Assembly (NCBI RefSeq): GCF_001898315.1
Contig: NZ_MKTQ01000028.1
Span: forward strand, 234,763 to 298,762
Origin: Microbacterium sp. 70-16
Lineage (GTDB): Bacteria; Actinomycetota; Actinomycetes; Actinomycetales; Microbacteriaceae
Direction: 5' to 3'
DNA: 64,000 nt
Below the pieces are notes generated by a model, which worked only from the letters and a program-made list of their open reading frames with translations, did not search any database and was not told the origin of the DNA. Of the stretch, positions 57,535 through 63,323 are shown piece by piece. Position numbers and translations under genes: made by a program. Each line of letters starts with the position of its first letter. The stretch's first letter is position 1.

Positions 57535-57643
57535 GTTGTTGCTCCCATCGCTGCGGTCCTGACCGGACGTGTGGCCAGTATGCGTCGCCGCCGCGCGGCG
57601 CACCAGCCCCTTGGGGTTGGACTTCGCGCGCGCGGCCCGGCAC

Positions 57644-57700
57644 GAAGTTGGCGCAACACGCGGCTACCCCCGTGGAGTTCTCGCGTGTCGCGCCAACTTC
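57644..57700. repeat. 57-bp inverted repeat
   Basis: GAAGTTGGCGCAACACGCG ... CGCGTGTCGCGCCAACTTC (19-nt arms, 1 mismatch). Confidence 0.82.
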
Positions 57701-57811
57701 TTGGCGCTGCAAGCCTCGCGCACCCTCGGCGCGTGCTTTCGAGCGACCGCTGGATACCCTGGCATCCAGCGGTGTTTTTCGCACCCGCGCGCGTGTCGTA
57801 AGATAGACGAC

Positions 57812-57902
57812 GGTGACGTGTCCGAGCGGCCGAAGGTGCAACTCTCGAAAAGTTGTGTAGGGTAACCCCCTACCGTGGGTTCAAATCCCACCGTCACCGC
57901 CA
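57812..57902 (+). tRNA. tRNA-Ser (CGA), with encoded CCA
   Basis: Acceptor GGTGACG/CGTCACC-G-CCA, anticodon stem-loop CAACT-CTCGAAA-AGTTG, long variable arm, T-loop GGGTTCAAATCCC. Confidence 0.95.
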
Positions 57903-57916
57903 GAAAAACACCATAT

Positions 57917-58795: not shown

Positions 58796-59350
58796 TTACG
58801 CCCTTCGCTTGGCGAGCCTTCGTAGTCTGATGACGGTGCCGCCAGACTCCCGCATTCGCCAGACGGCCATTTCTTCGCTGACTCCATATTGCATGGCGAG
58901 TCCAGACGGCGCGCCACCACGGATGGCGTGCGAACGGGCCGCGGCGGCGGGGATCAGGAGAGCGCCTCCGAGCTCGGCAGCCTCTCGCTCGTGCTCGGAC
59001 GACGCGCCACACTTTCCTTTCTGATCCATCCAAGATCCATTCAGACGATGCTCGCCCAAGATGTGCGCGATCTCATGGGTGAGGTCCGAGAGTATGCGTG
59101 GGGGGCTGTGGACGTGGTTGTAGAGAATCACATGACCTTCACCCTCGCGTAGGAGGGCTGCAGACCAGAGGTGGGGAGCCTCGACGGTGAAGCGTCTCAA
59201 TGCCACTGGGTCATCGGTCGCCTGCGCAAGGGACAGGACGGGGACTCCCCACAGGGCTGACCAGCGGGGCACGTCGAATGGCTCGCTGGGTGTGAGTCCT
59301 ATCTCATCTCGAACCTCGGTTGCGAGTCGGGCGAGCGCGGCCTTGTTCAC
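58796..59350 (-). CDS. ImmA/IrrE family metallo-endopeptidase
   Basis: VNKAALARLATEVRDEIGLTPSEPFDVPRWSALWGVPVLSL...LSDLTHEIAHILGEH (HExxH)...HEREAAELGGALLIPAAAA; GTG start at 59350 inferred because the longer ORF overlaps the upstream HTH gene. Confidence 0.9.
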   Translation of the reverse strand: MNKAALARLATEVRDEIGLTPSEPFDVPRWSALWGVPVLSLAQATDDPVALRRFTVEAPHLWSAALLREGEGHVILYNHVHSPPRILSDLTHEIAHILGEHRLNGSWMDQKGKCGASSEHEREAAELGGALLIPAAAARSHAIRGGAPSGLAMQYGVSEEMAVWRMRESGGTVIRLRRLAKRRA

Positions 59351-59351
59351 G

Positions 59352-59714
59352 TCAGTTTGCGGGTCGGGTGCTCCGAAGAACCTGCAGACCGGACTTGAAC
59401 ACGTTCTCGAGCAAGGTCTTGTCGGTCTCGGTGAGGTCCTTCCGGGCGCGCAGAAGCGCCGCGACCTCACTCATCAATTCCGGCTCAGACTCCGTCCGCA
59501 CGGTCGAGCCCAAGAAGTCGTCGGCCGACATCTTCAGCCACTGCGTGATTTGCACGAACGCGTCTAGGTCCGGTCGCTGCCCGTTCCGCAGCCGAGACAG
59601 TAACGAGGGACTCACTCCAATCTGACTCGCGGCTTGGCGCCATGAAATGTTCTCGGACTCGATCCTCGCGCTGAGCACGGCAGCAAGACGGCCGACATCA
59701 ATGTGGGTAGGCAT
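59352..59714 (-). CDS. XRE-family helix-turn-helix regulator
   Basis: MPTHIDVGRLAAVLSARIESENISWRQAASQIGVSPSLLSRLRNGQRPDLDAFVQITQWLKMSADDFL; next to ImmA/IrrE. Confidence 0.92.
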   Translation of the reverse strand: MPTHIDVGRLAAVLSARIESENISWRQAASQIGVSPSLLSRLRNGQRPDLDAFVQITQWLKMSADDFLGSTVRTESEPELMSEVAALLRARKDLTETDKTLLENVFKSGLQVLRSTRPAN

Positions 59715-59753
59715 GTCGCTTCTCTCTTTCTGCGATGGTACGACACCGACCTG

Positions 59754-59773
59754 GTGTTGCGCTACTGAAACAC
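59754..59773 (-). promoter_or_regulatory. candidate XRE operator site 1
   Basis: Minus-strand GTGTTTCAGTAGCGCAACAC, matching site 2 at 16 of 20 positions. Confidence 0.6.
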
Positions 59774-59787
59774 TTCCGGTACCTTGA

Positions 59788-59807
59788 GTGTTGCAGTAGC
59801 AAAACAC
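59788..59807 (+). promoter_or_regulatory. candidate XRE operator site 2
   Basis: GTGTTGCAGTAGCAAAACAC; inverted relative to site 1, centres 34 bp apart in the divergent promoter. Confidence 0.6.
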
Positions 59808-59830
59808 TGTCCCTCAAGAGAAAGGCTGTC

Positions 59831-60307
59831 ATGTCCATCACCACGCAGGACCCGCGTCACGAAGATGCGGGACGGCGCCCGAAGATCGCGATCACCATCG
59901 ATGGGGCGAGATTCACTACCCGCGATGACGACCAGGAAGCGGCCAGCCTTCTTCGCCTGGCGGGCCGTGATCCGAAGTCATGGAACCTCGCACGCCTGGT
60001 GCCCAGCGGCGAGCCGCAGCGGTTCAAGGACGGCAAGGTCATCGATCTCCGCGACGGCGATGCCTTCATCTCCGTCAAGCAGCGCGTCGAGTTGACCATC
60101 GTGATCGATGGCGAGTCCTTCACCACGAAGGATGATGATCAAGAAGCGGCCGCGCTGCTTCGCCTGGCAGGACTCAACCCGAACGAGTACGACCTCGCTC
60201 GAGTCCGCGACGGCGAAGAGCCGAAGGTCTACAAGGACACCAAGATCGTTGAGCTCCGCGACGGCGATGTCTTCGTCTCGGTGAAGCAGAGCAGCCCGGT
60301 CGCCTGA
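59831..60307 (+). CDS. tandem ubiquitin-like (multiubiquitin) domain protein
   Basis: Two related beta-grasp-like repeats: KIAITIDGARFTTRDDDQEAASLLRLAGRDPKSWNLARLVPSGEPQRFKDGKVIDLRDGDAFISVKQ and ELTIVIDGESFTTKDDDQEAAALLRLAGLNPNEYDLARVRDGEEPKVYKDTKIVELRDGDVFVSVKQ; first gene of an Ubl/E2/E1-JAB operon. Confidence 0.87.
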   Translation: MSITTQDPRHEDAGRRPKIAITIDGARFTTRDDDQEAASLLRLAGRDPKSWNLARLVPSGEPQRFKDGKVIDLRDGDAFISVKQRVELTIVIDGESFTTKDDDQEAAALLRLAGLNPNEYDLARVRDGEEPKVYKDTKIVELRDGDVFVSVKQSSPVA

Positions 60308-60672
60308 TGGATGCCCAGGTCAGCTCCCCCGTCGCCGCGTTCATTGCGGACCTCGCCGAGCAAGGTATTCATGCGCGAGTAAACGGACCCGCTGTGGTCT
60401 ACGAGGTTGTCGCGGTGACGGGGGCGCTGGCAGGTCAGTCCGTCTCGACCGCTGTGAGCATCAATGAGCTAGGGGGGTGGCCCGCGGCGCCGCCGCACTG
60501 GATTCATTTTCCGGCGAACGTGCAGTTCGCTTCCACGAACACCGACCTCATCGACTGTTTAGAGGGCTGGACGCGACATTCTCGAGACATCGGGAACTGG
60601 AGTATGGACCGGCCTGCGATAGCCAACTGGCTTGCGCATGTGCGGGGAGTCCTAGGAGGGGTATCGGCATGA
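60307..60672 (+). CDS. E2-like (prokaryotic E2 family E-type) protein
   Basis: 121 aa; PPHWIHFP...F.STNTD...CLEGWTRHSRDIGNW...WLAHVRGVL pattern; TGATG overlap with the Ubl gene; ATGA overlap with E1-JAB gene; single Cys (C84). Confidence 0.8.
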   Translation: MDAQVSSPVAAFIADLAEQGIHARVNGPAVVYEVVAVTGALAGQSVSTAVSINELGGWPAAPPHWIHFPANVQFASTNTDLIDCLEGWTRHSRDIGNWSMDRPAIANWLAHVRGVLGGVSA

Positions 60673-62153
60673 CAATCTCAATCGCTATGACACAAGAGCT
60701 CTCCAACGAACTCGAAGCACACCTCGCTCGCGCCGATGGGCAAGAGGATGTGGTCATCGCAACTTACGTCTGGTCGACGGGCAACACGCGACGCACCGCC
60801 ATCCTGGGTCGGGCAGTCATGCCGGCTCCAGGCGAACGCAAAGTCCACGGCAATGCGTCGTTCACGGGCGGGTATGTCGTGAGAGCTGCCACCGAAGCGC
60901 GCGAACGGAGCGAGGGCATCGTGCTGCTGCACTCACATCCGGATGCCACGGGCTGGCAGGGGCTTAGTGGGCCCGACCACAACACGGAGTCCGAGTACGA
61001 ACGCGTCGCACGTTCTATCACCGGCCTCCCTCTCGTCGGCATGACGCTCGGGACTCGGGGGAGCAGTTGGTCCGGCAGGGTCTGGGAAACCAGCGCGGAG
61101 CCAACCCACGCGGAGTCGGTGCGTGTCTCTGGTTCGACCCTGAGGGTAACGTGGAACGAAGACCGGCGCCGCGCGCCACGCGCCACTGAGTACCAGCGCC
61201 GGACTGTGGCCGCGTGGGGTGAGTCCATCCAGCGCGACATCGCGCGGCTCAAGGTCCTCGTCGTGGGCGTTGGCAGCGTAGGCCTGGATATCGCGGCAAG
61301 GATCGCAGCCACCGGTGTCGAGCATCTTGGCGTGATGGATGTGGACGTCGTCGAGGAGTTGAATCTTGATCGAATGATTGGGGCAACCCGTGAGGATGCC
61401 CGTGAGCGTCGATTGAAGACGGAGGTCGCCGCGCGAGTCGCGCGAACGGCTGCCACTGCTACCGATTTCGAGCTGCAGACCCACGACGTGAGCATCACCA
61501 CTCCTGAAGGCTTGGCTGCGGCTCTGGACTACGACGTGATCTTTTCGTGCGTCGACCGACCGTGGCCTCGTGCGGTGCTCAATTCCGTGGCGTACGCCGA
61601 CCTCATTCCGGTCATTGACGGGGGTATCGCAATCGATACTCTCCCTGACGGCCGAATGCGCGGCGCGACGTGGAAGACGCACGCCATCGTTCCGGGTCGG
61701 CCGTGCATGCAGTGCAATGGGCAGCTCCGTGTGAACGAGCTCACGCTGGATCGTGCGGGCCTGCTTGATAGCCCGAAGTACATTCGCCAGTCCGGCATCC
61801 AGCCCGGTACAGGTGCACCCAATGTCGCCGCGCTGGCCGCGTCCGTAAGCGCAGGAATGCTTGCCACGTTCGTCAGCTTGGTGGCAGCACCTGCCGGAAT
61901 CGGAGTCCCGGCTCCGCTGCGGTACGCGTTGGCGGTTCACCAGCTCGAACATCTGCCCGCGACGAGCGGGATGTTCTGCACCTACGAGAAGGGGACGGCG
62001 CTGGGCGACAAGCGCCTCAGCCTCGTGTCCAACTCTTGCTCTCCGACGAGCCAGCGTACTGACTCGCGGCGGGGACGTCTCCGCCGATGTGCGCGGCGGT
62101 TGTTGGCCGCGTTCACCGGTCGGCTGGCTCGCTTGGCGGAAAGGACCGGGTAG
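60669..62153 (+). CDS. JAB/JAMM isopeptidase-E1 (ThiF) fusion protein
   Basis: N-terminal JAMM-like LLHSHPDATGWQGLSGPD; C-terminal ThiF/E1 VLVVGVGSVGLDIAARI, MDVDVVEELNLDRM, IFSCVDRPWPRAVLNSVAYADLIPVIDGGI; CMQC. ATG at 60669 is in frame with ORF 60477..62153. Confidence 0.9.
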   Translation: MTISIAMTQELSNELEAHLARADGQEDVVIATYVWSTGNTRRTAILGRAVMPAPGERKVHGNASFTGGYVVRAATEARERSEGIVLLHSHPDATGWQGLSGPDHNTESEYERVARSITGLPLVGMTLGTRGSSWSGRVWETSAEPTHAESVRVSGSTLRVTWNEDRRRAPRATEYQRRTVAAWGESIQRDIARLKVLVVGVGSVGLDIAARIAATGVEHLGVMDVDVVEELNLDRMIGATREDARERRLKTEVAARVARTAATATDFELQTHDVSITTPEGLAAALDYDVIFSCVDRPWPRAVLNSVAYADLIPVIDGGIAIDTLPDGRMRGATWKTHAIVPGRPCMQCNGQLRVNELTLDRAGLLDSPKYIRQSGIQPGTGAPNVAALAASVSAGMLATFVSLVAAPAGIGVPAPLRYALAVHQLEHLPATSGMFCTYEKGTALGDKRLSLVSNSCSPTSQRTDSRRGRLRRCARRLLAAFTGRLARLAERTG

Positions 62154-62246: not shown

Positions 62247-63323
62247 ATGGAAGCCCGCCCATCCAAGAAGCCTGCGCGCGCAGCGGAGCCGAAGCCTTCA
62301 GCCGGTGAACCGGTCCAAGATGCGCTCCCGGTCGACGAGCCGCTGACAGCTGACGATTCAGTCGACGACAAGGTGCGTTCCGAGAACGCAGATGGGGCTT
62401 CGGATCCCGTCGACGAATCGACGTCGCCTGCGGACTGGGACGTGCTGATGCTCCTCCAGATGGGACCTGGCGCCAACAGTTCGCTGATGCGACCAGTCGT
62501 GCAGGACATAATCCAGCGACTCGGGGGGCTCGATGCACCGCGAGAGCCTGGCTCTCGCATCGATGTCTGGCTGGATTCCCCTGGAGGGGATGCTCACGCA
62601 GCGTACAAGCTCGGTCTCTATTTGCGATCGCGGTTCGAAGTTGTCAACTTCGTCATCGTTGACTACGCCAAGAGTGCGGCCACGCTGCTCGCGCTTGCAG
62701 GCGACGAGATCTTCATGGGGCCGGCCGCAGAGCTTGGCCCGCTTGACACTCAAGAGAGCCGCGAAGGCGAGGTTCGGATGCGCTCGAACCTCGACACCGC
62801 AAATACCATCGACAACGTTTACTTCCAGGTCGTTTCGAACGCCATCGCGGCGGGCAGCGAGATTCTGCGATCCACCGCGTTGACTCGAGAACAGACCATT
62901 CAGCATGTGCTCGACTTCTCAGCCCAGTTCGCCAGGCCGCTTCTCGAGCAAATCGATCTAGTTGCCGTGAACGCCGCGAGCACCAGCCTCGACGTCGCGA
63001 TTGAATACGGAGCCCGGCTACTGTCATACCGTCACAATCGGACCGGGTTCGCTTCCGCCAAGGCACGCATGTCTCAACTCGTTCGCGGATACCCCACGCA
63101 CGGGTACGTAATCGACCGCGATGAGGCGCGAGACGGGCTGGGCCTACCAGTGAAAAATCTGGAGGACTACGGGCTGTTGTCTCAACTCGATGCTGTCTAT
63201 GCTGGCGCTCAAAGCCAGCAAATGAACATCATCGAAATAACTAAAGCGTCAGCCATCGTTCGAGTCTCTGAGGAGGAAGAGCATGTGGAGCCTGAAGCAG
63301 GGACCGAGCCCGGAGCAGCATGA
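62247..63323 (+). CDS. SDH-type serine protease (ClpP/SppA/crotonase fold)
   Basis: RIDVWLDSPGGDAHAAYKLGLYLRSRFEVVNFVIVDYAKSAATLLALAGDEIFMGPAAELGPLDTQ; SPGGD oxyanion loop and YAKSAATL nucleophile region; acidic disordered N-terminus. Confidence 0.85.
   Translation: MEARPSKKPARAAEPKPSAGEPVQDALPVDEPLTADDSVDDKVRSENADGASDPVDESTSPADWDVLMLLQMGPGANSSLMRPVVQDIIQRLGGLDAPREPGSRIDVWLDSPGGDAHAAYKLGLYLRSRFEVVNFVIVDYAKSAATLLALAGDEIFMGPAAELGPLDTQESREGEVRMRSNLDTANTIDNVYFQVVSNAIAAGSEILRSTALTREQTIQHVLDFSAQFARPLLEQIDLVAVNAASTSLDVAIEYGARLLSYRHNRTGFASAKARMSQLVRGYPTHGYVIDRDEARDGLGLPVKNLEDYGLLSQLDAVYAGAQSQQMNIIEITKASAIVRVSEEEEHVEPEAGTEPGAA

Follow-up and report, generated by a model that had tools for sequence, protein, structure and literature searches.

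In Microbacterium sp. 70-16, an operon for ubiquitin-like (Ubl) proteins is transcribed divergently from a gene pair encoding an XRE repressor and an ImmA/IrrE protease, which raises the question of whether this pair controls the operon, and how. An initial annotation of the window (the whole 64,000-nucleotide stretch of DNA that was analysed) proposed that the Ubl system is kept silent and is de-repressed by ImmA-mediated cleavage of the repressor after a stress or phage cue. Sequence comparison suggests that a repressor-protease switch of the CapH/CapP type probably controls the operon, with a probability of roughly 0.77. The relevant features are the following.

58796 to 59350, minus strand: ImmA/IrrE (M78) metallopeptidase, CapP-like, 184 aa, probable GTG start, HEIAH motif, Glu121/Glu123, loop Cys
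59352 to 59714, minus strand: XRE repressor, CapH-like, 120 aa (Pfam HTH_3, PADLOC capH, AF2 model, Foldseek)
59754 to 59773, minus strand: putative operator 1, GTGTTTCAGTAGCGCAACAC on the minus strand (pair conserved in 7/7 closest XRE loci)
59757 to 59785, plus strand: predicted Ubl promoter, TTGCGC-17 bp-TACCTT (same placement in 7/7 loci)
59788 to 59807, plus strand: putative operator 2, GTGTTGCAGTAGCAAAACAC (pair conserved in 7/7 closest XRE loci)
59831 to 60307, plus strand: tandem ubiquitin-like protein, two Ubl repeats, 158 aa (Multi_ubiq)
60307 to 60672, plus strand: E2/RWD-like protein, 121 aa (operon position and type-6e description)
60669 to 62153, plus strand: JAB-E1 (ThiF) fusion (ThiF, 93.9 bits)
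62247 to 63323, plus strand: ClpP-like SDH-type serine protease (PF01972, 37 bits)

As first annotated, the XRE and HExxH ImmA genes abut on the minus strand and diverge from the Ubl operon, a layout that coordinates and Pfam matches confirm. The cargo consists of a polyUbl protein, an E2/RWD-like protein and a JAB-E1 fusion, as in type 6e prokaryotic Ub operons (row 6e of Iyer, Burroughs and Aravind 2006; PMC1779556), with the E2-like and JAB parts assigned by position and motif. Unlike that type, metal-binding protein Y is not seen in the window and a ClpP-like gene lies downstream instead. The Multi_ubiq match falls below the cutoff in the window protein (22.0 vs 24.5 bits) but above it in the homologue at L015/L027 (31.3). 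The E2/RWD-like protein has no Pfam match, nor does Pfam detect a JAB domain in the JAB-E1 protein, in whose N-terminal part a JAMM-like HSH...SGPD motif can be read. The ClpP-like gene begins 93 bp past E1; since no tblastn match to it was found beside E1 in the related type-6e operons inspected, it may belong to a unit of its own or have been added in this lineage. The operon may be a defence or stress system.

Several features of the homologues can be recorded here. All compared Ubl proteins terminate in VA. The HSR motif is invariant in E2-like homologues, and the Cys is absent in L074 and L108, a loss that fits an E2/RWD-like fold without a classical active site. At about 6800-9300 of L077, some 2.5 kb of transposase-like ORFs splits the E1 gene.

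The ImmA protein matches Peptidase_M78 (PF06114) with 40 bits against a Pfam cutoff of 22. Its listed ORF of 224 aa begins within xre in another frame; since the tblastn alignments of relatives mostly begin at residue 41-49 of this ORF, the start is probably the GTG at 59350 (184 aa), one base past the XRE stop. H92, E93, H96, E121 and E123, which form the HExxH-plus-Glu zinc site, are invariant across 31 ImmA sequences. In 28 of these 31, the window protein among them, the loop that follows HExxH contains a Cys. A loop cysteine of this kind serves as a switch in CapP and M. tuberculosis VapB52, where it keeps the zinc capped as long as no ssDNA is bound (PMC13273310). The best PADLOC model for ImmA is capP (2.2e-6), and a family profile compared with the PDB gave CapP (7t5t, 8e-8) as the best match, followed by IrrE. 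Profiles were needed for this comparison because PDB searches with single proteins gave no match for ImmA and nothing beyond a weak HTH match for XRE. The AF2 model of ImmA (pLDDT 92.6) has its best Foldseek matches in IrrE/PprI, including the PprI-ssDNA complex. The model keeps a predicted C-terminal helical, HTH-like part and stops after it, with no GAF domain (184 aa vs 291 aa in CapP), so the sensing step may differ from that of CapP.

In the XRE protein, HTH_3 scores 27.5 bits against a Pfam cutoff of 23, and capH is the best PADLOC model (9.5e-6). The AF2 model, with a pLDDT of 79 and a pTM of only 0.52, shows an HTH domain joined by a flexible linker (residues 71-75) to a C-terminal hairpin of two helices. 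Its Foldseek matches include DdrO and the N-terminal domain of CapH, but none falls below an E-value of 0.001, so the structure is of little help here. At the hairpin turn, by alignment and AF2 model, XRE carries a conserved L-L-R-A-R sequence (residues 87-91) with an invariant Arg89. The cleavage site of DdrO lies in a C-terminal loop that includes E-L-R-G, and a model of the PprI-DdrO-ssDNA complex has Arg118 of DdrO touching ssDNA (PMC10904395); the XRE sequence appears to resemble this cleavage-site loop. A Ser-rich XRE tail was considered as a kinase target and dropped, being present in L027 and missing from L026.

As the initial annotation described, the two 20-mers between the divergent genes are inverted, with centres 34 bp apart; they are identical at 17/20 positions. 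Each is an imperfect palindrome (14/20 and 12/20), and their joint palindrome score is 26, whereas shuffling the 150-bp region 40 times gave no score above 22. Across the 3.13-Mb genome, the originally annotated pattern has exact matches at these two sites only and one further site with three mismatches; the reversed control pattern has none. A relaxed family consensus was not enriched elsewhere in the genome, with 24 matches vs 115 for its reversed control. The predicted -35 element of the Ubl promoter (TTGCGC, 59757-59762) lies within operator 1, and the predicted -10 element (TACCTT, 59780-59785) lies between the two operators.

The question of whether these motifs belong to the repressor or to its cargo can be addressed through relatives of XRE. 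A scan for the family in 85,462 species genomes returned 44 relatives. The seven closest XREs (that of the window and six others at 53-72% identity to it) form one clade with a support of 100/99. All seven have the operator pair upstream, with spacings of 34, 34, 34, 36, 40, 40 and 35 bp. Across their 14 sites read both ways, G3, T4, A17 and C18 are invariant and the consensus is nTGTkkCrgTA... Nevertheless, the cargo differs: a type-6e Ubl operon in four of the seven (the window, L025, L026 and L027), PDC-M36A in L023 and L024, and a Beta-protein gene in L028, the latter two cargoes being candidate defence genes. Ubl and PDC-M36A labels are interleaved on the XRE tree, and its well-supported branches require the Ubl label to have changed two or more times. 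Since all seven XREs keep the pair while the cargo differs, the motifs go with the repressor, and comparison indicates that they are almost certainly XRE binding sites. That the operators follow the repressor clade even where the cargo has changed is the best evidence for XRE binding to these sites.

The best cargo-strand promoter is placed alike in all seven loci: the -35 element falls in the operator nearer to XRE, the -10 element in the spacer. Individual promoter scores are ordinary, with 0.07-0.58 of shuffles equally good, so only the common position is informative. In a further XRE subclade (L016/L017/L054), the recognition region reads SxSTISRM vs SPSLLSRL and the palindromes are of a TGCTCGA type, the class of operator varying with this region of XRE; the three ImmA proteins without the loop Cys are exactly those of this clade.

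ImmA lies immediately downstream of XRE in 42 of the 44 relatives, 14 of which face a CD-NTase (CBASS) and six a Ubl operon. A mainly Pseudonocardiaceae XRE/ImmA lineage (L031, L033, L037, L047, L050, L053, L064) sits beside a GH3 glycosidase, and nothing resembling defence cargo was recognised there; this glycosidase gave 12 matches among the scanned neighbour proteins, mostly from one Pseudonocardiaceae lineage.

Viewed from the cargo side, an ImmA-domain regulator adjoins 11 of the 15 type-6e Ubl operons examined, which are search returns and not a random sample. Besides the window pair, these are L025, L077 (an unrelated XRE and ImmA pair), L078, L103-L107 (L103 being from M. abscessus), L108 (from Nocardioides) and L112; L026, L027, L074 and L076 have no such regulator. 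L078, L104-L107 and L112 have HTH-ImmA fusions, in some cases accompanied by RelE-type toxins. For L077, L104 and L112, the M78 match stays under the Pfam cutoff, and the gene arrangement of L112 is that of L107. Because different ImmA regulators repeatedly accompany the same cargo, a functional link between the two is supported. Many of L077, L078, L103-L108 and L112 are on plasmids, in Mycobacteroides, Rhodococcus, Clavibacter and others, and a DarT-like gene lies near the L112 Ubl operon.

Two relatives complicate this picture. In Cryobacterium flavum (L026) and Diaminobutyricibacter (L027), XRE, the operators and the Ubl cargo are all retained, but ImmA is absent, its place being occupied by a Ser/Thr kinase and a TPR protein (L026 7732-10409; L027 8398-10979). 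In Diaminobutyricibacter, xre overlaps at its end with the kinase ORF, and in L015, the same locus as L027, PADLOC reports PDC-M71A (2e-104) plus PDC-M71B. A kinase homologue was found in only two of 300 family genomes, the second (G221) having another XRE nearby. Cleavage may thus not be the sole control of the repressor. A tentative extension, which we consider somewhat doubtful, is that the repressor-operator unit is a plug-in for different input devices, with phosphorylation by a Hanks-type kinase replacing proteolysis as the release step. If true, a kinase-run repressor of this kind would represent a class of regulator separate from CapK/CapS.

For the window, the proposed CapH/CapP-type switch would work as follows. 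An XRE dimer on the two palindromic operators would cover the divergent promoter region, blocking the predicted Ubl promoter and so repressing the Ubl operon; it would also repress xre-immA by autoregulation. ImmA would then be activated, most likely by ssDNA from DNA damage or phage replication, a signal that we favour with somewhat better than even confidence. Active ImmA would cut XRE in its C-terminal dimerisation hairpin, and with loss of the dimer, the Ubl, E2 and JAB-E1 genes would be expressed. Comparison provides the gene pairing, the operator-repressor linkage, the catalytic residues, the loop cysteine and the fold; DNA binding and dimerisation by XRE and its cleavage by ImmA are steps that we infer. 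The operators, their overlap with the predicted promoter and the ImmA gene in 42 of 44 relatives fit the de-repression model of the initial annotation; the two relatives without ImmA speak against cleavage as the only route. The similarity to the CapH and CapP models is also weak, at about 25 bits.

The surroundings of the cassette have features of their own. The 3' end of tRNA-Ser(CGA), at window 57812-57905, is repeated at G000:C23:24306-24335 without a tRNA there, and the repeat is followed by a terminator resembling that after tRNA-Ser in G700. Past it, C23 encodes what reads as a copper-ATPase-like gene, a DUF305-like lipoprotein and a MerA-like reductase. The two repeats are possible attL/attR ends of a genomic island; an empty-site proof failed, as the neighbours of the second repeat are not beside tRNA-Ser in relatives. 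At window 57625-57705, a hairpin-like sequence (GAAGTTGGCGCAACACG...) has many genomic copies at 74-86% identity, by which it is classed as a dispersed intergenic repeat.

Three rival explanations of the pair can be set against this. In the first, the repressor and its operators are as above, but the cue for ImmA is not ssDNA: it could be a redox change sensed by the loop cysteine, a RapI-like partner or a phage protein. The missing GAF sensory domain would suit such a cue, as would a conserved loop Cys that could be redox-active and the three subfamily ImmA proteins without it. However, ssDNA is used by PprI, CapP and VapB52 (PMC10904395, PMC13273310), and the predicted C-terminal helical/HTH-like part of ImmA is kept, which makes a different cue rather unlikely.

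Much less probable is that the pair chiefly runs an integrative element, as an ImmR/ImmA-type immunity switch with the Ubl operon as a bystander. A genomic-island setting would fit the tRNA-Ser next to the cassette, since a second copy of its 3' end exists elsewhere in the genome, and the ImmA is short, as is that of ICEBs1. Against this, the operators occur genome-wide at this divergent promoter only (in an assembly that is interrupted where the window ends), relatives of XRE number zero in 50,697 phage records, and relatives face CBASS and Ubl operons. XRE-ImmA pairs are also often annotated as toxin-antitoxin modules, and RelE/HigA-ImmA units adjoin related Ubl operons on plasmids. Yet the idea of an addiction module merely adjoining the Ubl operon is the least credible of all: the promoter anatomy ties the operators to the cargo promoter, Pfam detected no toxin domain in the pair, and test data for the similar S. 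mutans immRA pair opposed such a role (PMC10233336).

If the CapH/CapP-type reading is right, DNA damage or deletion of xre should turn the Ubl pathway on, and conjugates can then be sought. Comparison has defined, for a type-6e Ubl operon of Actinomycetota, the operator and promoter that such a switch would use. The cargo swaps within one repressor clade, together with the change from protease to kinase, suggest that candidate defence genes share control modules.

Among known systems, CapH/CapP, reportedly described by Lau et al. (2022, EMBO J), is the closest. As in that system, the window has an HTH repressor followed directly by an M78 protease at the promoter of an immune-type or Ubl operon, with similar catalytic residues, loop Cys and best database matches (albeit with weak scores); it differs in that its protease lacks the C-terminal GAF domain present in Thauera CapP, a domain not known to be required. 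CapW or CapH plus CapP lies beside 219 of 544 Bub operons and controls its neighbours upon DNA damage, Bub operons in general not being known to protect against phage (PMC13373217), so the window switch is of an expected kind. The initial annotation cited ImmR/ImmA and DdrO/IrrE as precedents; CapH/CapP is closer and has already been reported at CBASS and Bub operons, so the switch is less new than was implied. DdrO/IrrE (PprI) shares the repressor plus M78 protease, the protease fold and possibly an L-R loop in the C-terminal domain, but controls a Deinococcus regulon with many scattered promoters, whereas the window has a single local target (two local sites only) and a protease without a GAF-like domain. 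ImmR/ImmA of ICEBs1 and TnSmu1 is likewise a two-gene module with an ImmA-type protease; in the window, the cargo is instead a Ubl operon, the operators lie at the Ubl promoter only and there is no sign of excision-gene control. CapK/CapS and CapW at Bub operons are also DNA-damage regulators at Ubl operon promoters, but use a kinase-phosphorylated STAS repressor or a WYL repressor, which are non-homologous (PMC13373217). What sets the locus apart from these switches is its short GAF-less protease, its type-6e Ubl cargo and its two relatives with a kinase and TPR protein.
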